A stretch of 64,000 nt of DNA, taken from positions 2,509,501 to 2,573,500 of the forward strand of contig NZ_CP076361.1 in the NCBI RefSeq assembly GCF_018798885.1. The letters are read 5' to 3'. Source of the stretch: Gemmobacter fulvus. Lineage in GTDB: Bacteria; Pseudomonadota; Alphaproteobacteria; Rhodobacterales; Rhodobacteraceae. A program made the position numbers and the translations under genes. Below the pieces are notes generated by a model that searched no databases, was not told the origin of the DNA, and was given only the letters and a program-made list of their open reading frames with translations. Shown piece by piece: positions 35,006 to 46,067 of this stretch (the stretch's first letter is position 1; every line of letters starts with the position of its first letter).

Positions 35006-36241
35006 TCACTGTCTGGCCACCAGCCCCTCCTGCGCCAGATCGCCCAGCAGATGACGCATGTCTGACAGCAGCACCGCGCCGGGCACATCCGGGAAATACT
35101 CGGCCAATGCTGCCGCCAGATCTGCGCTGCTTGCGGGCAGTTCCAGCAGGGTCCAGACCGCAGCAGCGACGGGGTTGAGCCGGTAGAGCATCGGCGCACC
35201 CGGACGCCACAGGAAGGCATCCGCCCCATGCTGGCGCAGTGTCACCCGGCCTGCACGGCGGAACACCTGCGTCGGATCGACAGGCGGGCCTGCGGGTTCG
35301 GGCGGCGGGGCGGCAATCTCGGGGCCGATGTCGAGGCCGGGGGGCAGGGCGACTGCGCCACCAAAGGCAGACAGCAGCAAGGCCACGGCCTCTTCCAGAT
35401 CGGAATAGACCATGCGGAACGCGGGCAAGCCTTGCGTCAGGCGCAAGCCGGTCCTGAAGGCTGCCGCCCCGCTGTCCAGATCGGTGATCGTTTGCACCAG
35501 CATCCTGTGCAGGGCTTCGGCCGGGTCCATCCGGTGCAGCCGGGCCGCCTGCCCATCGCGCCGGTCCAGCAGCACCAATGCGGCAATCGGGGCCTGCTGG
35601 CCATGCGGGGCACGCCGCGCCCCCGACAGATAACCATAGAGATCATCCCTGAGGCCCAGGTGATCCGCCACGAAGCGCCGAAAGCCGGGATCGACGCGGG
35701 CAGGCAGCGGCAGGCGCAGCCGTGGCGCAATGCCGAGGGCGGTGGCCTGCCCGTCACTGCGCAGCGGCAGCACATCGTCACAGAACAGCTCTACCCCCGG
35801 TTCGGCGCAGAGCCGGGCACAGATCGTGCTTTTGCCAGAGCGGGCCAGCCCGGTCAGCACCACCAGCCGCCCGCCGATCTGCGCCGCGCCGCAATGCAGC
35901 CCGAGCGTGCGGGGGGCCGCTTCGCACCAGGCTTGCGAGACATCCGCCAGCAGGGCGCAGATCGCGCTGGCGGCGGGCAGCCCCTCCATCGGCGTCTCGA
36001 AATAGACCGAGCGGATGCGGTAAAGCCCGCCGCGCTCTGGCTCGATCCGGCACAGAACCTCCGCGTTCGGCTGTGGGGCAGGGGTGATTTGCCAGCCGGT
36101 CAGGCAACTGCGCAACGGCTCCAGCAGCTCTGGCGGCAGCAGGATCTGGCGGTTGAGCCCGGCAAAGCCGATCCGCAACGGAACCGGGGCGGCACCGCGC
36201 AGGCCCGCCCCCCGTCCCGGCGCTGACAGACGCCGCGCCAT
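35006..36241 (-). CDS. HPr-kinase-like protein fused to a PqqD-like domain
   Basis: A 411-residue protein (start ATG 36241, two bases after the stop of the repeat-protein gene; a TTG nine codons earlier is possible). The N-terminal two-thirds resembles HprK-related kinases: a P-loop GLARSGKST around residues 131-139 and a CDDVLPL acidic pair near 155. A proline-rich linker follows (about 305-325), then a PqqD-like winged-helix domain (about 328-411, with YRLNPVAAAVWTLLE). PqqD domains bind leader peptides of modified peptides; HprK-type kinases phosphorylate serine. A fusion of the two, behind a gene for a Ser-rich repeat protein, suggests it recognises and perhaps phosphorylates that protein. 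This is inference. Confidence 0.8.
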   Translation of the reverse strand: MARRLSAPGRGAGLRGAAPVPLRIGFAGLNRQILLPPELLEPLRSCLTGWQITPAPQPNAEVLCRIEPERGGLYRIRSVYFETPMEGLPAASAICALLADVSQAWCEAAPRTLGLHCGAAQIGGRLVVLTGLARSGKSTICARLCAEPGVELFCDDVLPLRSDGQATALGIAPRLRLPLPARVDPGFRRFVADHLGLRDDLYGYLSGARRAPHGQQAPIAALVLLDRRDGQAARLHRMDPAEALHRMLVQTITDLDSGAAAFRTGLRLTQGLPAFRMVYSDLEEAVALLLSAFGGAVALPPGLDIGPEIAAPPPEPAGPPVDPTQVFRRAGRVTLRQHGADAFLWRPGAPMLYRLNPVAAAVWTLLELPASSADLAAALAEYFPDVPGAVLLSDMRHLLGDLAQEGLVARQ

Positions 36242-36243
36242 TG

Positions 36244-36585
36244 TCAGCCGCCGAACCGGATGCGCCAAGCGGATTTTCTGCGCGAAGCGACCGAGCGTTT
36301 GCCCCGCGACGGGGCCGAGCGGCGTCCGCGCGACGCGGCAGAGCGACGCCCGCGCGATGCTGCGGACCGGCGACCGCGCGAGGCCGCCGACCGGCCCCCC
36401 CGCCCTGCGCCGGACCGTCCCCCGCGCGAGCCGCCGCCCGATTTGCCGCCCGAAGCGCCGCTGGCATGGGCCGCGTTCAGGCCCAGCATCACGGGGGCCA
36501 CATAAGCCGCGCCTGCGATGAGCCCGGTCCTGAACAGCAGGGCGCGGCGGGACAGGGTGGGATCAGCCTTCTTTTCTCCGGTCAT
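36244..36585 (-). CDS. Small Tat-exported protein with Arg/Ser octapeptide repeats
   Basis: A 113-residue protein with three parts. The first is a twin-arginine signal (LSRRALLFRTG, then hydrophobic LIAGAAYVAPVMLGL, with a cleavage-like AHA at 39-41). Next come a Gly/Ser linker (SGASGGKSGGGSRGGRSG) and a run of eight-residue units of the type GRRSAASR, repeated about five times (residues 64-105). The C-terminus is WRIRFGG. The repeat is also visible in DNA as a 24-base period. Ribosome binding site AAAGGA precedes ATG 36585. The first 45 residues closely resemble the start of the protease encoded just upstream. Function unknown; the very basic mature part could bind nucleic acid, lipid A or anionic polymer. 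Confidence 0.75.
   Translation of the reverse strand: MTGEKKADPTLSRRALLFRTGLIAGAAYVAPVMLGLNAAHASGASGGKSGGGSRGGRSGAGRGGRSAASRGRRSAASRGRRSAASRGRRSAPSRGKRSVASRRKSAWRIRFGG
36298..36400 (-). repeat. Tandem 24-base repeats inside the small Tat-exported protein gene
   Basis: About four to five copies of a 24-base unit encode GRRSAASR-like octapeptides on the minus strand. Units differ mainly at third positions, which indicates selection on the protein repeat and not a very recent expansion. Confidence 0.7.
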
Positions 36586-36640
36586 GTGATGTCCTTTCCG
36601 TTTGCGTTCTGGCCGGTCTTTTGATCCGGCTCTGTGGATG

Positions 36641-36667
36641 AAACGGAACAGCCCGCCGATTTATTCC
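36641..36667 (-). promoter_or_regulatory. ECF-type promoter for the repeat-protein/kinase genes
   Basis: On the minus strand GGAATAAA (36667-36660), 14 bases, then CGTTT (36645-36641). The -35 element overlaps the last codons and stop of the protease gene. The pattern matches the two promoters in the sigma/protease intergenic region, so the same sigma factor probably reads all three. Predicted start of transcription lies about 50 bases before the repeat-protein ATG. Confidence 0.65.
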
Positions 36668-37992
36668 CCGCTGGTCAGATAATTTTTGGCCCCGTCCCCG
36701 GCGACGGTTGCGGTGCAGAGGTTCGGGGCGGTGACAAGACCGTGCCCGAAGGTCTCGTCAAAGCCCGCCTCGCCCAGATCCTTGGCGCAGCCGATCAGGC
36801 CCGCCACCACCGCCGCCACCGGCGCATCCGGGTTGCGCATCTGTTCTATCGCAAGGGCGGCGGTGACAAAGGGCGCGGCGTAAGAGGTGCCGGAGCGCAA
36901 CCTGCCGCCCGAGATCGACGCGGCTGTCCAGAGGTTCACCCCCGGCCCCGCCAGGGTGACATAGGGGCCGCGATTGGCCTGCCGGTAACTGCGCTGTTCG
37001 TCGTCCACCGCCGTGACCGCAATCACCTCGGGCCAGGCCGCAGGCCAGGCAGGCCCGGCCCCCGGCCCACCATTGCCCGCCGCCGCCACAAGCCCGATGC
37101 CCTGCGCCGCCGCATGTTCGACCAGGCGTTTCAGCACGATGTTCTCCGGCCCCGAGAACGACATGTTGATCACGCTCACCCCTGCGGCAACCATGCGCTC
37201 CAGCGCCTGACCAAGCGAAAAGGCATCGGCCTGATCGGCCCCGCCCCGGTTGTGAAAGGCCTCGACCGCGACCAGCTCGGCATGGGGCAGCAGGCCCGGC
37301 GTCCGGCTGTCGAGCCGCCCCAGCAGCAGGGCAGCAATCGCGGTGCCATGCTGGCGGCCTGCCGCATCGCGCTTGCCCAGATCCACCTGATGCACGGTCA
37401 GCTTTTGCCCGCGCAGCGCCTCGTGGTCGGTATTGATGCCGGTGTCGATCATGCCGATGCGCGGGGCATAGGCGCTGGGCCAGCCGCTCCAGCCGATCAT
37501 CTCATGCGCGGCGCAATCGCCCGCTTCGCATAGAAAATCGTCGGGTGCATAAAGGTGGTTCTCGTCGCCCACCGCGCCCGGAAAGCTGCCTGCGAGGCGC
37601 GCGAGCGCGGTTTCAGGCGTCTCGCCCGAGGGCAGGGCCAGCCGCAGCAGGGTGGCCCCCGCAACCGGGCTGCTGGCGAGCACATCATACCCGGCCTGCG
37701 TCACCGCCTCGGCTGTGGCGCCGGGGGGCAGCAGGACCACCAGTTCCGGGTCAGGTGGCGGAGGCGCGCGCCGTACGCGCTGCGGCTGCGGTTTTGCCAC
37801 ACGCCGTTGCTGGCGCACCACCGGGCGCGAGCCGCCGCCCCGCCCGCCGCCGCCGGATCCGCCCGAAGCGCCAGAGGCCCGCGCCACCCCAAGCGTCGTC
37901 AGCACCGGCGCAACATAGGCCAGCCCGCTGGCCAGGCCGATCCGCCGTAGCAGCGCGCGCCGCCGCAGGTTGGTTTCTTCATGGTCTGCCAT
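36661..37992 (-). CDS. Tat-exported subtilisin-like (S8) serine protease
   Basis: A 443-residue secreted protease; start ATG 37992 chosen for its GGAGG site (a TTG one codon earlier is possible). A twin-arginine signal (LRRRALLRRIG, then LASGLAYVAPVLTTLG) is followed by a Gly/Ser-rich and basic, proline-rich linker up to about residue 82. Next come a short propeptide-like domain and the subtilase domain with catalytic Asp183 (MIDTGINTDH), His215 (GRQHGTAIA), oxyanion Asn307 (AAAGNGG) and Ser370 (SGTSYAAP). Its N-terminus shares RRALL-R-GL, AYVAPV and ASGASGG with the repeat protein downstream. It is divergent from the sigma-factor gene. Likely substrate, the repeat protein or the anti-sigma factor, is inference. 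Confidence 0.9.
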   Translation of the reverse strand: MADHEETNLRRRALLRRIGLASGLAYVAPVLTTLGVARASGASGGSGGGGRGGGSRPVVRQQRRVAKPQPQRVRRAPPPPDPELVVLLPPGATAEAVTQAGYDVLASSPVAGATLLRLALPSGETPETALARLAGSFPGAVGDENHLYAPDDFLCEAGDCAAHEMIGWSGWPSAYAPRIGMIDTGINTDHEALRGQKLTVHQVDLGKRDAAGRQHGTAIAALLLGRLDSRTPGLLPHAELVAVEAFHNRGGADQADAFSLGQALERMVAAGVSVINMSFSGPENIVLKRLVEHAAAQGIGLVAAAGNGGPGAGPAWPAAWPEVIAVTAVDDEQRSYRQANRGPYVTLAGPGVNLWTAASISGGRLRSGTSYAAPFVTAALAIEQMRNPDAPVAAVVAGLIGCAKDLGEAGFDETFGHGLVTAPNLCTATVAGDGAKNYLTSGE

Positions 37993-38025
37993 CAATGCCT
38001 CCGCAATTCCGCCCCAGATCTACAG

Positions 38026-38050
38026 AACGGTCGTCCGCTTGATTTATTCC
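38026..38050 (-). promoter_or_regulatory. ECF-type promoter for the S8 protease gene
   Basis: On the minus strand GGAATAAA (38050-38043), 13 bases, then CGTT (38029-38026), about 35 bases before the protease ATG. It is the mirror partner of the sigma-gene promoter 36 bases away; the two -35 boxes face outward within an imperfect inverted repeat. Confidence 0.65.
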
Positions 38051-38085
38051 TGACCCGCCGTATATCAAAAAATATTCACGTCGGC

Positions 38086-38111
38086 GGAATAAACCGGGCC
38101 GTCTGGCCGTT
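38086..38111 (+). promoter_or_regulatory. ECF-type autoregulatory promoter for the sigma-factor gene
   Basis: GGAATAAA (38086-38093), 14 bases, then CGTT (38108-38111), about 33 bases before the GTG start codon. GGAA-type -35 and CGT-type -10 elements are standard for group IV sigma factors, which usually control their own operon. Confidence 0.65.
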
Positions 38112-38143
38112 GGCATAGACAGAAGCCATGCGGGGGACGGCCA

Positions 38144-38668
38144 GTGTCACAAGCCATTCGGGCAGAGATGATAGAGATGCTGCCGCGTCTGCGCAGCTTC
38201 GCGCTCAGCCTGACGCGGGCGCGCGATACGGCAGACGACCTTGTGCAACAGACCTGCGAAAAGGGCCTGCGCAATCTGGCGGGCTTTCAGCCGGGCACCC
38301 GGCTGGATGCCTGGCTGTTCCGCATCATGCGCAACACCTGGATTGATACCGTCCGGGCGCGCAAGGAGGCGATGCCGCTGGATGATCTGACCGAGGGCGC
38401 AGAGCTGATGGGCGAGGATGGGCGCAGGACAAGCGAAGACCGCCTGCATCTGGCCGAAGTGCGCCGCGCCATCGCCCGTCTGCCAGAGGATCAGCGCGCC
38501 GTCTTGCTGCTGGTCTGTGTCGACGGGCTCCGCTATCGCGAAGTCGCGGCGGCGCTGGACATCCCGGAGGGCACGGTGATGAGCCGCCTGTCGCGGGCGC
38601 GCCTTGCCTTGGCTGCAGAACTGAACCGCACCGAAGAGCCTGCGGCAAGAAGGGGAAACACGCCATGA
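38144..38668 (+). CDS. ECF (group IV) RNA polymerase sigma factor
   Basis: The 174-residue product has sigma region 2 (SFALSLTRARDTADDLVQQT through LDAWLFRIMRNTWID) and region 4 (LPEDQRAVLLLVCVDGLRYREVA, here split, and IPEGTVMSRLSRARLAL). Start is GTG at 38144 with GGGGGACGG upstream; the nearby ATG at 38128 is in another frame. Its stop overlaps the anti-sigma gene by four bases (ATGA), ensuring coupled synthesis. It is divergent from the S8 protease and likely directs transcription of both directions plus the repeat-protein operon. Confidence 0.93.
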   Translation: MSQAIRAEMIEMLPRLRSFALSLTRARDTADDLVQQTCEKGLRNLAGFQPGTRLDAWLFRIMRNTWIDTVRARKEAMPLDDLTEGAELMGEDGRRTSEDRLHLAEVRRAIARLPEDQRAVLLLVCVDGLRYREVAAALDIPEGTVMSRLSRARLALAAELNRTEEPAARRGNTP

Positions 38669-39381
38669 TGAACCATGATGTTGACGGGCTGGGTGGCGAG
38701 GAGAGCGACGAGATGCTGATGGCTTTGGCCGATGGTGAACTGCCCGAACCCCAGAGCACGCAGCTTCTGGCGCGGATCGCGGCCAACCCGGATCTGGCCG
38801 CGCGGTATGCGCTGTTCACCGATACCCGCGCCTTTGTGCAGGAGGCCTATGCGCCCGGCCCGGTGCCGGACGCCTTGGTGCAGGCCATTCTGGATGCGCC
38901 AACCTCCAATGTCGTGGCTTTTCCCGCGCGCCGTCCGGTTCGGGCGGGAATGGCGCTGGCGGCCTCGCTGGTGGTGGCGGTGGGCTTGGGCGGCTTTTTT
39001 GCCGGGCAGGGGTTTGGCCCCGGCCTGCAAGCCACCGCCGATCCCGCGCGCGATGCGGCCCGCCTGCTGGCGACCACACCGACCGGCGGCACTGCCGCGC
39101 AACCCGATGGTGGCAGCGCGCGGGTGCTGGCAAGTTATCAGACCGATCTTGGCCTCTGCCGTCTGATCGCGCTGGAGTTCGCTTCCGGCGGGGCAGAGCG
39201 TGCCATGGTGTGTCAGGAAGGCACCGATTGGGCTGTTGCGCTGTCGGTCATCGCGGGAACCGAAGAGGCCTATCTGCCTGCGTCGGAAACGGCGACGGCG
39301 CTGATCGACACCTTCCTCGATGGCTTCAGCGCCAGCGCTCCGCTTGAGGCAGAGGCAGAGGCCGCCGCCCTCGGGCAATAA
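38665..39381 (+). CDS. Membrane-anchored anti-sigma factor
   Basis: A 238-residue protein with a short N-terminal cytoplasmic anti-sigma-like domain (DEMLMALADGELPEP; no zinc-binding HxxxCxxC motif), one membrane segment (about residues 94-112, GMALAASLVVAVGLGGFFAG) and a periplasmic domain of about 125 residues. The coupling to the sigma gene (ATGA overlap) and domain layout identify it. The periplasmic part holds two cysteines (LGLCRLIAL, AMVCQEG) that might form a disulfide and sense the periplasm. Start may be either of two adjacent ATG codons. Confidence 0.88.
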   Translation: MMNHDVDGLGGEESDEMLMALADGELPEPQSTQLLARIAANPDLAARYALFTDTRAFVQEAYAPGPVPDALVQAILDAPTSNVVAFPARRPVRAGMALAASLVVAVGLGGFFAGQGFGPGLQATADPARDAARLLATTPTGGTAAQPDGGSARVLASYQTDLGLCRLIALEFASGGAERAMVCQEGTDWAVALSVIAGTEEAYLPASETATALIDTFLDGFSASAPLEAEAEAAALGQ

Positions 39382-39480: not shown

Positions 39481-40331
39481 GGTCATGTTGACAAATGGCG
39501 GAGCCAGAGGCGGATCGAGGTGATGTCGATGAAGCCCAAGAAGCTCTCTGCGGTTTTGTCGTAGCGGGTGGCGACGCGGCGGGCGTTCTTCAGCTTGTTG
39601 AAACAGCGCTCGACGAGGTTGCGCAGCCGATAGAGGGTGCGGTCCACGGCCACGCGCAGCTTGCGGGACTTGCGCATGGGGATCACTGGCACGACGTTGC
39701 GTCCCTCCATGGTTTCTCGAAGCTTGTCAGAGTCATAGCCGCGATCTGCCAGCAGGACGCTCGGCTCGGGCAGGTTGTCGTCCATGATGAGGTTGAAGCC
39801 CAGATAGTCCGATGTCTGGCCCGGCGTGATGTCCGACCTCATGGGCAGGCCTGCGCCATTGACGCGGAGGTGGATCTTGGTCGTGAAGCCACCTCGCGAA
39901 CGGCCAAAACCTTGTCGCGGAGTCCCCCTTTAGCGCCCGCTGCCTGATGATGGGCGCGGACCACGGTGCTGTCGATCATCTGCAAGGCCGCAGGAACCAC
40001 CCCGCTCTCGTTCAAGGCCTCCAGTATCCCTTCCCACAGCCCAGCCAGGGTCCAGCGCCGGAACTGGCGGTAGACAGACGACCACTTGCCGAACTCCTCC
40101 GGCAGGTCACGCCACGGAGAACCTGTGCGCGCTATCCAGAAAATCCCATCCAGAACAAGACGATGGTTCATAGGTTTGCGCCCGTTCGGTGCGCGGACGG
40201 CCAGGATGAAGCGTTCGTGAAACGCCCATTCATCGTCCGACATCAGGTCTCGTGCCAAGCTGGTCTCCATCGCAGATACCAGCTTGAATCACGTTCAGAG
40301 CGCCCCGTGAATCCCTTTTGTCAACACGGCC
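39481..40331 (-). mobile_element. IS5-family insertion sequence (IS427-like group)
   Basis: An 851-base element with terminal inverted repeats GGTCATGTTGACAAATGG (39481-39498) and, reversed from 40331, GGCCGTGTTGACAAAAGG, matching at 15 of 18 positions. It is flanked by TA on both sides (39479-39480 and 40332-40333), a likely target duplication. It encodes a transposase in two overlapping frames on the minus strand. It sits at the extreme left of the tRNA-Phe element. Confidence 0.88.
39483..40270 (-). CDS. IS5-family transposase (OrfA/OrfB, frameshift)
   Basis: The first frame (39839-40270, 143 residues) holds the N-terminal domain (NHRLVLDGIFWIARTGSPWR) and the first catalytic Asp region (MIDSTVVRAHHQAAGAKGG). 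The second frame (ending 39483) holds the second catalytic Asp (ADRGYDSDKLRE) and the C-terminal Glu region (RNLVERCFNKLKNARRVATR). The frames join by a -1 shift at AAAGGGGG on the minus strand (39931-39924), the usual programmed signal in this IS group. All DDE residues appear present, so the copy may be active. Confidence 0.85.
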
Positions 40332-40499
40332 TAAAGGGAGAAACTTCGAACCGGGTGTTTGTGGAGCTTGCATAGTGGAACCTGCAGCTTGACTGGAGCG
40401 AGCACAGCTCGAGATAAACAGCAACGACCACCGACCTCGACCTCGACCTCTAACTGCAGGAGCAAAATAATGTAGCAAGCTTCGTATGCAACTTCAGGC
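40332..40499. other. Leader region of hamAB
   Basis: Non-coding stretch between the insertion sequence and hamA. It contains a triple CGACCT repeat (40432-40449) flanked by CCTGCAG (40381-40387) and CTGCAGG (40454-40460), which form an inverted repeat. No convincing promoter is visible. The first bases (to the TAG at 40373-40375) would encode the recombinase C-terminus in the excised circular form. Confidence 0.4.
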
Positions 40500-41450
40500 A
40501 TGCTCCAGATACCACGCTGGTCCGCCTTTGCGCACCCGCCACAACATCTTGCGGTAGAATTCGCGCGCGCATACTCGGCGAATGAGTGCATCAATTGTGT
40601 GAGCAGTTTGTCGAGCATCCCAGACCCGTTTCTTGAAATCCGCTGCACAACCGTGCTTGGCGATCACACTGCCTATACGCTTTGTGCGGGGTACGAAGGC
40701 GACGAGTGGCGGGCAAAAAAGCTCGCCGCTCACATTTTTGCATGGCTTCCACAGGTAGCCCTTGACCAAACCCGTCGAGATACCTTCGACACGGGGAACT
40801 GGCATGAACGCGTTGAACTCGCGGCCGCACACATCTACCGGACCAAGAAGACTTTGAGCCGAGGGGAGATCGGTGAAATACTCCTGCATATCGCGTGTGT
40901 TCAACAATTCAATACCCTTCCGGTCTTGTGCAAACTGGTCTTGAAGACTAGTCACAATGACACCGTAAAAGGATTTGACGCGGTTCACGTCGTTTACACA
41001 GGAGACCAGATTGAATTTTGGCTCGGAGAGTCAAAATTTTACAAAAACCCGACTGCCGCAATAAATGACGCGCTGAATTCAATTCGCAATCACCTTCTAC
41101 CAACATTTCTCGACACCGAGAAGGCAATGATCTACGGCCATATACCCGCAGACTTTCCAAAAGCCGATGAGATTCGAAAATTTTTTCACAGAAATACATC
41201 CAGCGACGAGCTGATTAAAAGATCGGTTGTACCAGTTTTAATATGCTATGAAAGCAAGTCGGTAGCCAGCTCCAAGAAGCTAACGGCTGAATATTCAGAG
41301 GCACTAACCAAAGAAATAGCAACACTTCATAATGAATTCATCTCCAAAGGGCTTGATATAAAAATCACAATTCAACTTATTTTTATTCCAATGCACTTGA
41401 AGACGGTACTGATTTCGCACTTTGACAAGATGCTGGAGGCATTCGCGTGA
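40500..41450 (+). CDS. hamA: Hachiman antiphage protein HamA (DUF1837 nuclease-like)
   Basis: HamA is the effector of the Hachiman defence system, related to PD-(D/E)XK nucleases and held inactive by HamB. The 316-residue product has a nuclease-like core: Glu126 in RGEIGEILLH, Asp160 in VKGFDAVHV and the ExK motif at 177-179 (LGESKF). The N-terminus is uncertain: ATG 40500 has a weak ribosome binding site and the first 40 residues look less protein-like, so a later GTG or TTG start near 40600 is possible. Its stop overlaps the hamB start by four bases (GTGA). Codon use is AT-rich compared with flanking genes. Confidence 0.85.
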   Translation: MLQIPRWSAFAHPPQHLAVEFARAYSANECINCVSSLSSIPDPFLEIRCTTVLGDHTAYTLCAGYEGDEWRAKKLAAHIFAWLPQVALDQTRRDTFDTGNWHERVELAAAHIYRTKKTLSRGEIGEILLHIACVQQFNTLPVLCKLVLKTSHNDTVKGFDAVHVVYTGDQIEFWLGESKFYKNPTAAINDALNSIRNHLLPTFLDTEKAMIYGHIPADFPKADEIRKFFHRNTSSDELIKRSVVPVLICYESKSVASSKKLTAEYSEALTKEIATLHNEFISKGLDIKITIQLIFIPMHLKTVLISHFDKMLEAFA

Positions 41451-43576
41451 ATTCACTCGAAATTTTGCGAAATCTTAGCTCCGAGAGAATTCTCACGGGA
41501 AATGAAGTTTTCGATGCTATTCTTGAGGCGAGCATCGTCAGTTCGTCACGTCGATATGAAAATCCGTGCGCCCTCGAAATTTCTATAAGATTGCTGGATG
41601 CAAGCGAGAAAGGTCAAATTCCATATGGTTGTCACGACGCTATTGAGCACTTGGCTGAAGAATGTGGATTGTACCCGTATGTAGCCCTCGAAAATCTGAA
41701 CACTTTGCGTTCCGCCGCGATGGAAGCATTTGCGGTGCAACTTGACAATAAAATCTATCTTCATGCCAAACAAATGGAAGTCCTAACCCACCTTGAGGCG
41801 GGCGAGAATATCGCTCTCAGTGCCCCCACAAGCTTTGGAAAGAGTCTTGTGGTTGATGCCTTCATAGCGACCAGCAGACCAATCTGCACAGTAGTAATCG
41901 TTCCAACTATCGCCCTAATTGATGAGACTCGACGCAGGCTGGAAAAGAATTTCGGCGATATGTACCAAATCATATCGAAAAGATCAGATATTCGAAAGTC
42001 CGATCAAGCTATATTTGTCCTGACACAAGAGCGATTTCTCAACAGAGAGGACATAGATAACATAGATTTTCTCTTCATCGACGAATTTTACAAACTTGAT
42101 CCACGTCGTGATGACCATCGACATCGCGCTCTCAATGTCGCACTATATCGTGCCTTGCGGATATCAAAGCAATTCTTTCTGGCCGGTCCTCACATAGCGC
42201 ATCTAAACGCAGGTCCCGTTTGGAAGGAGCGAATTCTTTTTATGAGATCAGAGTATCAGACTGTTACAGTGAACACGATTGACCGCTCCAACTTGGATCA
42301 AAGACTTCCCTCGTTCATCTCAGACCTGCGCGGCGTAGAAGGCCAGCAATCTCTAGTGTATACAAGATCACCGGGTTCAGCCCGGAAACTAGTCAAAGAA
42401 CTTCTGGTCAACGAAATTCATTTCGATTCTCCGATGGGCGTTGAAATCTCAAACTGGCTTAAGGAAAACTTCCACGGCGAATGGTTTTTGGCCGACGCAT
42501 GCAAGCATGGAATCGGAGTGCATCATGGTAAAATTCCCCGATCAGTCGCTCAGTTTTTTGTTCAGCTTTTCAATGATGGCGAGCTACCAGTTATGATCTG
42601 CACTTCAACTCTCATTGAAGGTGTAAATACGTCTGCTGAGAATGTTTTTATTTATGACAATGAAATAAACTTAACGCCGCTGGATTACTTCTCATTCGCG
42701 AATATTCGCGGGCGGGTGGGGCGGATGATGAAGCACTTTGTGGGAAAGGTCTATCTTTATTATACACCTCCAAAGCACACGGACCTCGGCGTCGACATAC
42801 CTGTACTCTCAGCCCCTGATGAATCAGATGATTACATCTTGATAAACTACGATACGGAACAACTTAGCGATGCGGGGCGAACTAGGCAGTTATCATTGCC
42901 TCTCAAGTATGATTTGAGCGTAGATACGTTAAAGATGTTTGGTCATTTTGGGGCTGACGTTCTGAGTGATGTAAAAAAAGAAGTTCGGAAGATTCTTTTG
43001 GACCAACCTCATCGCTTGGAATGGTCTGGATATCCGGATTACAATCAAAGGATTACTGTTTGTGAACTAATCCGCCCGCTTCTTAATTCAAAAAGTGATA
43101 GAACGGTTCGCCTTTCCGCGAAGCAGACAGCTTGGGCTTGGGGTAAGTTACTTAAACTTCCAAATCTAGGCAGCTTCCTCCTCTGGTTTCAGACTACATT
43201 TTCTAGTGACGAAGTGCAGGATGGCATAGAACGTGCATTTGAATTCTTGGGATCATGTGAATTTAATCAGGCGACATCTGTAGCGGCGGTGAATGCTCTA
43301 ATTCTTGAGATCAATCCCAACTTTAAGGCTGGATACAGCTTCTTTGCTTTGCAGCTTGAATCATGGTTTCGCCCTCCTTGGATGAAAGAGCTTGATGAGA
43401 TGGGCATACCGGTTCCGCTGTCAGAACGCTTGTTGCGTTATTTGGGTAGGCCGGACGACTATGCGGCAGCCCTTTCAGCTATTGCAAGCCTGCCCATAGA
43501 TGAAATCAAGGGCCTCTCGTCTATTGACAGGCTGTTGATTCGCCGAGCAACGACAGCTCAAAGCCGCCTTGCATGA
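41447..43576 (+). CDS. hamB: Hachiman antiphage helicase HamB
   Basis: Superfamily 2 helicase that senses foreign or damaged DNA and releases HamA. The 709-residue product starts with GTG (GGAGG six bases upstream) overlapping the hamA stop. Motif I is SAPTSFGKS (residues about 125-133), motif Ia region IVPTIALIDE, motif II is DEFY (212-215, unusual in place of DEAH), and motif VI is NIRGRVGRMMKHF. The C-terminal 200 residues are helical with no motif I recognise. It forms a two-gene operon with hamA. Confidence 0.88.
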   Translation: MNSLEILRNLSSERILTGNEVFDAILEASIVSSSRRYENPCALEISIRLLDASEKGQIPYGCHDAIEHLAEECGLYPYVALENLNTLRSAAMEAFAVQLDNKIYLHAKQMEVLTHLEAGENIALSAPTSFGKSLVVDAFIATSRPICTVVIVPTIALIDETRRRLEKNFGDMYQIISKRSDIRKSDQAIFVLTQERFLNREDIDNIDFLFIDEFYKLDPRRDDHRHRALNVALYRALRISKQFFLAGPHIAHLNAGPVWKERILFMRSEYQTVTVNTIDRSNLDQRLPSFISDLRGVEGQQSLVYTRSPGSARKLVKELLVNEIHFDSPMGVEISNWLKENFHGEWFLADACKHGIGVHHGKIPRSVAQFFVQLFNDGELPVMICTSTLIEGVNTSAENVFIYDNEINLTPLDYFSFANIRGRVGRMMKHFVGKVYLYYTPPKHTDLGVDIPVLSAPDESDDYILINYDTEQLSDAGRTRQLSLPLKYDLSVDTLKMFGHFGADVLSDVKKEVRKILLDQPHRLEWSGYPDYNQRITVCELIRPLLNSKSDRTVRLSAKQTAWAWGKLLKLPNLGSFLLWFQTTFSSDEVQDGIERAFEFLGSCEFNQATSVAAVNALILEINPNFKAGYSFFALQLESWFRPPWMKELDEMGIPVPLSERLLRYLGRPDDYAAALSAIASLPIDEIKGLSSIDRLLIRRATTAQSRLA

Positions 43577-44057
43577 GCTTAACGGCGTCTACCTCGAGTT
43601 TCGGATTTGTCTGTGGTGTGTTCAGGCTCCGGCTAACGCAAGGCAAGCCACAAAATATTCTGGAAGATGTTCTCCTTCCAACGTCTATGCTGCTACGGTC
43701 AATTTTTGGATATCAATAGGACGTTTCTGGTACTTGCTCGCATTAACACGACCCAGCCCATCTAGCACAATTTCTCCCCGATTCTCGCAATTATAAATCA
43801 CATTATGTAATTCATATTGACTGCAGGAAGCGCAATGGCACATCAGGAATGTACCATTTTATTTTACTTGCATCATTTTTGGAGAATAATGCTAGCAAGT
43901 TGATGTAGTTGGCGCAAACAGATGTGCCATTTTCTGGGGCGGGCCAATGTCATTTACTCTTACACAAGCAAAGCATTGATTTTGATTTATAATTTGAGAA
44001 CATAGCCTCAAGCCAAATCGATCCGCGATGAGGCGTTTATGTAAGGAGGGTTCGAAA
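43577..44057. other. AT-rich intergenic region in the island
   Basis: A 481-base gap between hamB and a 101-residue gene. I see no credible gene; short frames here have poor starts and unlike composition. It contains an 11-base inverted repeat, AATGGCACATC (43834-43844) and GATGTGCCATT (43921-43931), separated by 76 bases, which could be an operator pair or an origin/transfer-like structure. The promoter of the downstream genes probably lies between the right arm and 44040. Confidence 0.5.
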
Positions 44058-44363
44058 ATGACTTTGCTCCACGAAGCCGAAATCAAAACCACGCGGCCTA
44101 TGAATGTAATTGCGCAGCACCGCCCCCACGGACACGTGGAAATCGATACCGAGCACTATCAGGCACTTCTCGACGGTAGCGATTTGAATGCGAAGCAGAG
44201 GACCGACTTCCTTGCAGCGCTGTGGTCGGTGATCGTCGCCTTCACTGATCTTGGTTACGGCGTACACCCCCTTCAGCACGCTTTACCGGGCCTCACCATC
44301 GGAGAAGACCTGAATCGCGAAATCATTCGAACCATCGAAGAATTCTGGCGCGACGCCGCCTGA
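44058..44363 (+). CDS. Conserved-looking 101-residue protein before the recombinase
   Basis: Unrecognised protein. The start ATG has an excellent AAGGAGG site seven bases upstream. The sequence (for example HVEIDTEHYQALLDGSDLNAK and DFLAALWSVIVAFTDLG, each only part of the chain) looks soluble and mixed alpha-helical, with an acidic C-terminus (REIIRTIEEFWRDAA). It is 19 bases before the serine recombinase and is probably co-transcribed with it, so a role in excision control is possible. It is not a recognisable excisionase. Confidence 0.7.
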   Translation: MTLLHEAEIKTTRPMNVIAQHRPHGHVEIDTEHYQALLDGSDLNAKQRTDFLAALWSVIVAFTDLGYGVHPLQHALPGLTIGEDLNREIIRTIEEFWRDAA

Positions 44364-44382
44364 TCATTACAGAGGAATCCCA

Positions 44383-45978
44383 ATGCTTGACCGCCACCCC
44401 AAAATTGTCCGCAAGAAGTGCGTCATTTACTGCCGCGTATCATCAACGAAACAGACCAGCGACGGAGCCGGACTGACCAGTCAGGAACAAAGCTGCCGCG
44501 AGTATGCTGAACGATGCGGCTACGACATCCTCGACGTTTTCACTGACGTGATCTCGGGCAAGTACGCGGTGCGGCCCGGCATGAACGCGCTGATTGCCTA
44601 TCTTAAGAGCGTGAAGGCCCATGAATACGTCGTCGTCTTCGACGACGTATCCCGCCTTGCCCGGGACGTTGGTGCATATACTGAACTGCGCGGGAAGATC
44701 ACATCGCTCGGTGCGGTCTTGGAAAGCCCTAAGCAAAAATTCGGTGAGGATTCGAATTCACGCCTCATCGGTAACATCATGATGTCGGTTGCGTCTCATG
44801 GTCGCGAAAGCAACGCTGAACAGTCTCACAGCCGTAGCATCGCACGCATGAAGACTGGCTACTGGGTTTTCCGTGCACCTCCCGGATACCGCTACGAGAA
44901 GGCGCGCGGCGGCGGTAAGACACTCGTTCGTGATGACCCCGTCGCATCTATCTTGGCAGAAGCACTCAATGGTTTTGCAACTGGCCGATTTCAGTCTCAG
45001 GCTGAAGTGAAACGGTTCCTCGACACCAAGGCCGAGTTCCCGAAAGACTATCAGGGCACCGAGGTCCGGTTTGACCGTGTCACTTTCCTGCTAAGACATG
45101 TAGCCTATGCCGGGTACGTCGAGAAAGAGGATTGGGGAGTACCTCTCACCAAGGCAGTCCATGAGCCCCTCATCTCGTACGATACCTACCTCATAATTCA
45201 GGATCGCCTGAATGAAAGGAACGTCGTACCTGCTCGCAAGGACATTGATCAGGACTTCCCGCTTCGTGGCTTCCTTGTCTGCGACTCCTGCGGGCGTCGA
45301 CTGACGGCGTGCTGGTCACAGAGCCGTACGGGCAAGAAGTACCCTTACTACCTGTGCCATTACCGCGACTGTGCCGAAAAGGGCAAGCCGATCCGTAAGG
45401 ACAAGATCGAGGATGTTTTCAGCGATCTTCTGAAGGCGGTTGTGCCCAATCAAAATACTTTCGAACTCGCCGAACGCATGTTCAGGGATGCGTGGGACCG
45501 TCGCTCTGCTCAGTCAAAGGACGAGCAGCAAAGGCTTCGAACCAAAGCCAATCAGATTGAAAGGGAAGTTGAACAACTTCTCGAACGAGCCTCGCGAACC
45601 AGCAACGATTCCGTCGCCGAGGCATACGAACGTAGGGTGGCGGAACTGCAAGCCGAGAAGGTCAAACTAGCTGAGGAGACAGACAAACTGGACGCTCCTG
45701 CGGTCAGCTTCGACAAAATGTTCGAACTCGCGATGCGCTTCCTCGCAAACCCTTATGAAATCTGGAAAAAGGGAGGATTCGTTGTCAAGCGAACTGTACT
45801 AAGATTGGTTTTCGCCGCGCCCCTCGCGTTCAGTCGAAAAGAAGGCCTTCGAACCGCAGAAACCACCTATCCGTTCAAGGTCTTACACTACATCTCAGGG
45901 ATGGATTGTAAAATGGTGCCCGGAGACGGATTTGAACCGCCGACACGCGGATTTTCAATCCGCTGCTCTACCAACTGA
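44383..45978 (+). CDS. Large serine recombinase (integrase of the island)
   Basis: Catalyses integration and excision at tRNA-Phe. The 531-residue product has the resolvase catalytic domain (YCRVSSTKQ with Ser20; DVSRLARD), a recombinase domain (about residues 165-280), a zinc ribbon (CDSCGRRL and CHYRDC) and a coiled-coil region (about 380-440) typical of large serine integrases. Its last 20 or so codons lie within the tRNA-Phe gene, so the C-terminus seen here is a product of integration. In the circular form the frame would read into the left end of the element and stop at 40373-40375. Confidence 0.92.
   Translation: MLDRHPKIVRKKCVIYCRVSSTKQTSDGAGLTSQEQSCREYAERCGYDILDVFTDVISGKYAVRPGMNALIAYLKSVKAHEYVVVFDDVSRLARDVGAYTELRGKITSLGAVLESPKQKFGEDSNSRLIGNIMMSVASHGRESNAEQSHSRSIARMKTGYWVFRAPPGYRYEKARGGGKTLVRDDPVASILAEALNGFATGRFQSQAEVKRFLDTKAEFPKDYQGTEVRFDRVTFLLRHVAYAGYVEKEDWGVPLTKAVHEPLISYDTYLIIQDRLNERNVVPARKDIDQDFPLRGFLVCDSCGRRLTACWSQSRTGKKYPYYLCHYRDCAEKGKPIRKDKIEDVFSDLLKAVVPNQNTFELAERMFRDAWDRRSAQSKDEQQRLRTKANQIEREVEQLLERASRTSNDSVAEAYERRVAELQAEKVKLAEETDKLDAPAVSFDKMFELAMRFLANPYEIWKKGGFVVKRTVLRLVFAAPLAFSRKEGLRTAETTYPFKVLHYISGMDCKMVPGDGFEPPTRGFSIRCSTN
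45907..45919. repeat. Proposed right attachment site at the tRNA-Phe 3' end
   Basis: TGTAAAATGGTGC; bases 45914-45917 are the complement of the tRNA CCA end and discriminator. It matches the proposed left site at 12 of 13 positions. Confidence 0.5.
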
Positions 45979-45989
45979 GCTATCCGGGC
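45914..45989 (-). tRNA. tRNA-Phe (GAA)
   Basis: Reading on the minus strand, the acceptor stem GCCCGGA pairs with TCCGGGC, the D-arm has GCTCAGTTGGTAGAGC, and the anticodon loop is TTGAAAA (anticodon GAA). The T-loop is GGTTCAAATCC and the CCA end is encoded. All arms fold. The 3' end is the integration target of the island, and the recombinase frame overlaps the gene. Confidence 0.96.
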
Positions 45990-46067
45990 ATCCTTGGCGT
46001 GATGCCGTTTGGTGGGGCGGTATTAAGCGAGGGCGTCGGGGCTGTCCAGAGGGATTTCGGAAAAAAG

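Follow-up and report, generated by a model that had tools for sequence, protein, structure and literature searches.

A conserved pair of an HprK-fold kinase with a PqqD-like domain and a leader-bearing repeat protein in Gemmobacter fulvus and other proteobacteria: a putative peptide-guided phosphorylation and export system

Introduction

A 64,000-nucleotide stretch of the Gemmobacter fulvus genome (contig NZ_CP076361.1, positions 2,509,501 to 2,573,500; hereafter the window) contains at 35006-39381 five neighboring genes encoding an extracytoplasmic function (ECF) sigma factor, a putative membrane anti-sigma factor, an S8 serine protease, a small protein with Ser/Arg octapeptide repeats, and an HprK-like kinase fused to a PqqD-like domain. 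A first-pass annotation had taken them for one self-contained regulon in which the kinase-PqqD protein modifies the repeat protein before its export, and all five open reading frames (ORFs) were indeed found where it had placed them. The locus raises two questions: do the five genes belong together, and what does a kinase with a peptide-binding domain do beside a small, exported-looking repeat protein? Our comparison of related loci revealed that the conserved unit comprises two genes, those of the small leader protein and of the HprK-fold kinase fused to a RiPP (ribosomally synthesized and posttranslationally modified peptide) recognition element (RRE), while sigma factor, anti-sigma factor and protease form an optional module. 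We propose, with a probability of about 0.62, that the pair constitutes a peptide-guided phosphorylation and export system, in which an RRE-docked client is phosphorylated on serine before its export, probably by the twin-arginine translocation (Tat) pathway.

Results and Discussion

The kinase and the leader protein form a conserved pair

The first-pass annotation had staked its idea on homologous loci not regularly lacking the repeat protein or the kinase, and few such loci were found. The kinase was searched in 394 genomes of the family (cut-offs of E ≤ 1e-12 for the kinase and E ≤ 1e-6 for the leader, chosen after the lists had been seen), which gave 43 matching genomes at E ≤ 0.001, and for 28 of these the E value was 3e-30 or lower; 35 kinase neighborhoods were read by script. 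Leader and kinase were both present in 28 of the 394 genomes. A leader match without a kinase occurred only in G230, whose contig stops 284 bp past the leader ORF, and in G414, where the match is by eye an amine-oxidase-like protein without the YxxP motif described below and hence a false one. Only G400 (locus L058) had a kinase without a leader match, and its 328-amino-acid (aa) kinase ORF stops before the PqqD part. In all other strong-kinase genomes (27 of 28; 26 by script and L068 by sequence), a small leader ORF, with a start of the twin-arginine type and a repetitive, Ser-rich remainder, lies directly upstream of the kinase gene.

The wider scan, which took one genome per species and the best 80 of 108 kinase relatives, found the small leader ORF immediately ahead of the kinase gene in 76 of the 77 loci that could be evaluated (75 by profile, L156 by eye), leaving L100 as the sole evaluable kinase locus without the repeat protein; L088, L097 and L098 are cut by contig ends. 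These relatives occur in further Rhodobacterales, Mesorhizobium, Aliihoeflea, Shinella and Dongia as well as in Limnobacter, Oxalobacter, Halomonas/Vreelandella and Guyparkeria, that is, in Alpha-, Beta- and Gammaproteobacteria, and in a phylum sample the kinase was found at E ≤ 1e-25 in 7 of 349 genomes, the window genome among them. The family sample and the wider scan overlap (e.g., L014/L078 and L049/L081), so their counts are not additive. Together with an RRE-type motif shared by the leaders, this co-occurrence much strengthens the idea that the kinase-PqqD protein may act on the repeat protein.

The kinase joins an HprK-type catalytic site to an RRE

The C terminus of the kinase matched PqqD (PF05402) with 43.9 bits against a curated cut-off of 23.4 (E value of 2.9e-11), and the top PDB sequence match of this part was the lasso peptide RRE TbiB1 (5v1u, E value of 4.8e-10). 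An AlphaFold2 model built from 55 sequences reached a predicted local distance difference test (pLDDT) score of 92 and a predicted template modeling (pTM) score of 0.86, and its residues 15-309 are predicted to adopt the PEPCK/HprK fold, with a VIA-align Z score of 15.7 to PEPCK. The Foldseek matches at E ≤ 0.001 include the HprK structures 3tqf, 1ko7 and 1kkl, of which the HPr(Ser) kinase 3tqf was also matched by sequence profile (E value of 3.3e-4). PEPCK ranks above HprK in both Foldseek and VIA; we call the protein a peptide kinase because of its sequence, residues and context, and the fold rank is not the basis of this call. Among curated models, the best match to the kinase domain was HprK-related kinase A (TIGR04352), at 42 bits far under the cut-off of 200.

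Over the 55 kinase sequences, H116, G136, K137, D155, D156 and W363 are invariant and S138 is kept in at least 90%, while G131 is invariant only in a closer set of 8. Residues H116, G131, G136, K137, S138, D155 and D156 follow the same order as the motif of the verified lasso peptide kinase BsfK, H148-G163-G166-G168-K169-S170-D186-D187 (PMC10368454). Fold and P-loop residues are likewise those of HPr kinase/phosphorylase, from which the present protein differs by its RRE and by its neighboring proposed client, a leader-bearing repeat protein instead of HPr.

The leader combines a YxxP motif with a twin-arginine-type signal

A leader profile was built from 21 aligned leaders (alignment A4), in which R13, R14, G21, Y28, P31 and A39 are invariant. 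Applied to the window genome, it scored the repeat protein with 77.7 bits and the protease with 71.4, followed by 13.1 bits for the next-best protein; the likeness of the protease leader to that of the repeat protein had been missed in the first-pass annotation. YxxP was present in 105 of 105 leader matches, a count that is partly circular, as the seeds had been cut by a pattern requiring [YV]xxP, which all 20 of them passed. By comparison, YxxP was found in none of the 18 readable ordinary Tat signals among the 24 TAT_signal candidates of the window genome. The motif sits within the hydrophobic part of the twin-arginine-type signal. Both window proteins carry the RR pair (invariant in A4) and, as judged by eye, a hydrophobic stretch and an AxA site, and it is on these features that we keep the label 'Tat-exported' that both had been given.

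Behind the leader, the octapeptide repeat of the window protein corresponds to a 24-bp DNA period with 3.8 copies and 80% matches (Tandem Repeats Finder [TRF]). The composition of 80 cores, 79 from relatives plus the window's own, was 20% Ser, 20% Arg, 19% Gly and 9% Pro, with at least 4 Ser/Thr in each core. Ser/Thr residues spaced by 3 were over-represented (585 versus 284 in within-core shuffles; z of 27.7, a value inflated by relatedness), and common units were RGRRSAAS, RPS, SGG, SAA, PSE and YSRPS. A general cationic antimicrobial or protamine-like role of the cores was considered and rejected, as they range from Arg-rich to neutral to acidic; single members could act in this way.

Several further features of cores and clients were seen. 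Many cores have a C-terminal tail that includes a Trp, e.g., ...PLWLRRLLQGS, ...PNWMRRAFGG and ...WERDGVIELRISRLLPHRW. In G417 (contig C35; L207 3776-4258), a leader-bearing SYSRPS protein without a kinase match in the 8 kb examined represents an unlinked client, and its core is of the Halomonas type, though the genome belongs to the window's family. On a small contig of G075 (L076 1382-1780), a Ser/Gly-repeat, exported-looking protein without YxxP lies near a 281-aa kinase-homologue ORF.

The position of YxxP also bears on an alternative without any phosphorylation. Redox-enzyme maturation chaperones bind Tat-type signals and hold back their clients, and the PqqD-HprK protein might similarly be an ATP-dependent export chaperone that retains its client at the Tat-type signal. 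Binding within the hydrophobic part would mask the signal, and the protease bears the same leader, as such a chaperone would have it. We nevertheless regard this explanation as improbable, for mere holding hardly explains the invariant catalytic residues of the HprK/lasso-kinase type, every core examined contains Ser/Thr, and the precedent enzymes are peptide kinases (PMC10368454, PMC13381572).

Relation to known peptide kinases

The closest published parallel that we found to the proposed phosphorylation system comes from the linear polyphosphorylated peptides (LPP) of Bacillota described in 2026, in which a discrete RRE, an HprK-like kinase and a YxxP leader bring about Ser phosphorylation and YxxP is essential for RRE binding (PMC13381572). 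Both families have an HprK-like kinase, an RRE, a precursor with a conserved N-terminal YxxP and a variable C terminus, and no macrolactam cyclase. However, the RRE of the present family is fused to the kinase C terminus, its leader doubles as a twin-arginine-type signal, its cores are Ser repeats and its hosts are proteobacteria, whereas LPP and paeninodins are described as restricted to Bacillota (PMC13381572). In place of the SpI-like peptidase, nucleoside triphosphate (NTP)-transferase and MsbA-like transporter of LPP clusters (PMC13381572), some of our loci have ECF/S8 or two-component/PepSY-like genes. None of these three LPP accessory genes was found among the 11 ORFs scanned at 33.2-43.6 kb of the window, and no recurrent neighbor of this type was recognized by eye in related loci. 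Since the kinase type, RRE and YxxP are present but the other defining parts are absent, we do not file the family under LPP; by analogy, it probably works like LPP and is best read as their fused proteobacterial analogue.

The phosphorylated lasso peptides (paeninodin and Bsf; PMC5067487, PMC10368454) share the H, GKS, DD order in an HprK-family kinase, and in the Bsf system the RRE stimulates the kinase and the leader reads YxxPxL (PMC10368454). The present family differs in having repetitive clients and in carrying kinase and RRE on one chain; neither a macrolactam cyclase nor a B2 peptidase was found among the 11 ORFs scanned. W/Y/LxxP-type sequences are reported to be bound by RREs of several classes (PMC12710340). 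In the literature searched, which covers few subscription papers, no account of an RRE fused to a kinase and combined with Tat-type leaders came up, and in the main texts of RRE-Finder (PMC7470986) and of PMC12710340 the word 'kinase' is absent.

These precedents suggest a sub-variant of our proposal, in which one or several phosphates are placed on one Ser near the leader cleavage site and the Ser repeats are a flexible spacer or surface polymer. LppK adds several phosphates to Ser3 and BsfK likewise modifies Ser3 (PMC13381572, PMC10368454), and a Ser shortly after AxA was seen by eye in many clients. This Ser is not universal, as several Halomonas clients lack it by eye, and the S-x-x-S spacing is very common in cores, for which reasons we hold the sub-variant to be somewhat unlikely.

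The S8 protease as a second client

The Pfam S8 match of the window protease passed its cut-off, whereas the best NCBIfam match, the mycosin model, stayed below its own. Asp183, His215 and Ser370 are the residues that we take, by motif, to be the S8 catalytic triad. Twenty protease loci from its relatives were examined. G036 has a leader protease with a sigma gene, located away from its kinase, and G209 is discussed below. Two of the remaining 18 loci (L164 and L173) are cut before the N terminus; all 16 readable ones show, by eye, a Sec-type signal followed by an Asp run, and 14 of them lie in genomes without a full kinase, one in G166 and one in G400, whose kinase lacks the PqqD part. Conversely, every genome whose protease shares at least 58% identity with that of the window (7 in all) also carries the kinase. 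The linkers contain 40% D/E in the 18 proteases without a leader versus 6% in 26 with a leader, a comparison biased by the fact that the 18 had been picked by a pattern requiring an Asp run after the signal. It thus appears that acquisition of the leader brought the protease into the system, and it is likely a second client of the kinase. The ECF sigma/anti-sigma/S8 genes of other family genomes form a homologous three-gene module, in which the protease has a Sec-type signal and an Asp-rich stretch (by eye) where that of the window has a Tat-type YxxP leader and a Gly/Ser/Arg stretch. A hint in these sequences is that phosphoserine replacing the aspartate of the Asp runs would fit this shift from Asp to Gly/Ser/Arg.

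Homologues of the sigma and anti-sigma genes also adjoin 12 of the 18 protease loci without a leader and without an adjacent kinase. This would be expected if the window held an ordinary ECF envelope-stress regulon (sigma factor, anti-sigma factor and a secreted S8 protease) to which the neighboring kinase and repeat genes were unrelated. We consider this very improbable, given that the leader of the client is present on the kinase-adjacent protease but missing from all 14 readable proteases of genomes that lack a full kinase, and that the three promoters are all of one type and recur across loci.

An optional module and its promoters

The claim that the five genes make up a single self-contained system did not hold. 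Sigma, anti-sigma and S8 genes accompany the kinase pair in only 25 of the 80 kinase loci and in 6 of the 28 loci of the family sample. We rejected the view of one inseparable system, because these three genes also occur without the kinase and the pair often occurs without them. The leader is in frame on the protease in 22 of the 25 five-gene loci; the proteases of L104 and L108 are of the Sec/Asp kind, and for that of L102 no leader was found in frame. In the rhizobial loci L121, L122 and L126, a leader protease occurs without a sigma gene in the stretch examined. Eight family loci (L062-L065, L068, L069, L071 and L073) instead have a second leader protein with a response regulator and a histidine kinase. 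A PepSY-like tail is common to 7 of these second leader proteins and is weak by Pfam (L065, E value of 6e-4, 20.4 bits against a cut-off of 24; no match in L069); several clients of this PepSY-like clade terminate in a Cys pair. L084 has sigma/S8 genes on one side and, on the other, a Sec-type PepSY protein that passes the Pfam cut-off, with two-component genes. The pair without an extra module is found in Halomonas, for example. We also looked for an additional conserved partner in 23 loci of the Halomonas type and rejected the idea, since the recurrent neighbors look by eye like housekeeping genes (prolyl-tRNA synthetase, transglycosylase, MFS). In the tree, the sigma/S8 label requires 12 changes, and we therefore do not claim a single origin of the module.

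In the window, the kinase gene starts 2 bases past the stop of the repeat gene directly upstream of it. The sigma factor contains both sigma regions 2 and 4 (Pfam, above cut-offs). That it is coupled to a membrane anti-sigma factor, as had been claimed, agrees with the 4-bp overlap of the two genes and with one hydrophobic segment seen by eye; curated support stayed below the cut-off (NCBIfam NF052375, 33.4 bits against 100, E value of 4.4e-8). The assignment is thus made mainly from gene position and coupling to sigma, as no curated model passed.

The three promoters of one type proposed earlier were recovered. The pattern GGAATAAAN{13,17}CGTT has three sites in the window, with spacers of 13-14 and a C before each CGTT; they take the form GGAATAAA-N13/14-CGTT and precede the repeat, protease and sigma genes. 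No such site arose in 100 shuffles, and of the 4 strict matches in the whole 4.68-Mb genome, 3 belong to the locus (a looser pattern, GGAATAAN{14,15}CGTT, has 5 sites in the genome). The fourth (L021 3222-4028; G000:C1 near 1459509) precedes an RTX-like calcium-binding repeat protein, as judged by eye, which is possibly a distant regulon member or a chance match.

Across 1.09 Mb of the 80 loci, GGAATAA-N14-18-CGTT occurred 62 times, and the reversed pattern once. Of the five-gene loci, 23 were counted; here, a site of this type stands in front of the leader gene in 14 of 23 cases, of the protease gene in 12 of 22 and of the sigma gene in 10 of 23. The last figure is probably a lower bound, since for sigma genes of other loci the start codons had to be guessed. 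Outside five-gene loci, the corresponding figures are 11 of 56 for leader genes and 4 of 4 for leader proteases. The spacer is 14 or 15 in every one of these 51 promoter sites. As in the window, the TAA stop of the protease lies within the GGAATAA of the next promoter in 14 of 26 leader proteases elsewhere. The three window promoters are presumably served by the sigma factor of the locus, and leader-gene promoters without a neighboring sigma gene suggest regulation in trans.

The protease and sigma genes are divergent, and the intergenic region between them holds their sigma-type promoters back to back; this arrangement would suit a role of the S8 protease as a site-1 protease for the anti-sigma factor, regulated by the (phospho-)repeat protein. 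PepSY domains occur in peptidase propeptides, and the PepSY-like domain in the extra leader protein of the second clade (L065, below the Pfam cut-off) points in the same direction. As the protease is absent from most kinase loci, we regard this addition to the proposed phosphorylation system as unlikely.

Proposed mechanism and points that weigh against it

The model builds on linkage, co-occurrence, leader identity, the predicted fold with its catalytic residues, and promoter conservation. The PqqD/RRE arm of the kinase would bind YxxP inside the twin-arginine-type signal of the client and thereby also hide the signal from the Tat translocase. With the core so tethered, the HprK-fold domain would phosphorylate one or more client serines in the cytoplasm, whereupon the client would be let go, cross the membrane (probably by Tat) and be trimmed at the AxA site. 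The client would be the small Ser-repeat protein in nearly every locus examined, with the S8 protease as a likely second client here. As the anti-sigma factor appears to span the membrane, production may be tied to an envelope signal via the ECF sigma factor or, elsewhere, a two-component system.

Several observations speak against this proposal. Pfam TAT_signal reports neither the repeat protein nor the protease at E ≤ 10, so that the claim of Tat export stands by its visible features and not by this model. An unlinked leader-like protein in G240 reads YVAT instead of YxxP, and the weaker kinase homologues of G350 (E value of 3.4e-11) and G075 (E value of 1.3e-10), which only narrowly missed the kinase cut-off, adjoin small exported-looking proteins without YxxP. 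In the split systems of G052 (L018 and L019), which have HprK-like kinases and, in L018, a discrete PqqD-like gene, tiny proteins carry RR...Y[TA]AP leaders and short cores without Ser repeats; this looks like a sister or ancestral version. The first search pass scored few candidates per genome (4 kinase, 18 leader) and may have missed weak relatives. Among the proteases, that of G209, a genome whose kinase is encoded at another place, combines an RR signal lacking YxxP with an Asp-rich stretch, that of G166 is of the Sec type though the kinase is present, and that of L105 has both leader and Asp run. In LPP and BsfA, the modification falls on one Ser close to the cleavage site (PMC13381572, PMC10368454), which means that the target may lie outside the repeats, and BsfA phosphorylation persists when either Y or L of YxxPxL is replaced by Ala (PMC10368454).

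A bolder version, which we hold to be less likely than not, is that the Tat signal doubles as the leader for the RRE-kinase, that phosphorylation of the serine-repeat protein licenses its export, and that this YxxP-Tat code was pasted onto the protease and the PepSY-like protein, giving a small exported phospho-proteome with phosphoserines in place of the Asp tracts of related leaderless proteases.

The published RRE plus HprK-kinase chemistry that we found concerns natural-product precursor peptides (lasso, LPP). In the present family, this chemistry appears to act on clients that are repetitive and exported, in hosts from the Alpha-, Beta- and Gammaproteobacteria, and such clients can be recognized by a leader of about 45 residues. 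If so, secreted proteins would be phosphorylated while ATP is still available, peptide-modification enzymes would be linked to Tat export, and a set of unannotated Ser-repeat proteins would gain a testable role, for which the leaderless related proteases provide a natural control.

Layout and surroundings of the locus

Table 1. Features of the locus in window coordinates
Feature	Position	Strand	Basis
HprK-fold kinase with C-terminal PqqD/RRE domain	35006..36241	-	ORF, 411 aa as translated; likely ATG at 36241
HprK/PEPCK-fold domain, residues 15-309	35315..36199	-	structure and profile comparison
PqqD-like RRE domain, residues 347-408	35018..35203	-	PF05402
Ser/Arg-repeat protein of 113 aa (probably exported; proposed substrate of the kinase)	36244..36585	-	ORF; leader profile 77.7 bits
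Repeat-protein leader: R13-R14, Y28-VA-P31, AxA at 39-41	36463..36585	-	leader alignment A4
RGRRSAAS octapeptide repeats	36305..36395	-	TRF period 24, 3.8 copies
ECF-type promoter of repeat gene	36642..36667	-	pattern; its GGAATAA includes the TAA stop of the protease gene
S8 (mycosin-like) serine protease, same leader as repeat protein	36661..37992	-	PF00082 E 1.1e-28; leader profile 71.4 bits
Protease leader, Y26-VA-P29	37876..37992	-	leader alignment and profile
ECF-type promoter of protease gene	38026..38050	-	pattern
ECF-type promoter of sigma gene	38086..38111	+	pattern
ECF sigma factor	38144..38668	+	Sigma70_r4_2 E 5e-18, Sigma70_r2 E 2.7e-14
Putative membrane anti-sigma factor	38665..39381	+	weak NCBIfam match; recurrent sigma partner

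The region from 39483 to 46000 is probably a mobile island beside the five-gene locus. Directly downstream of the anti-sigma gene lie insertion sequence (IS) 4/5-type transposase ORFs (39483-40270), followed by a Hachiman defence pair (HamA, 40500-41450; HamB, 41447-43576) and by an ORF at 44383-45978 that resembles, by eye, a serine recombinase.

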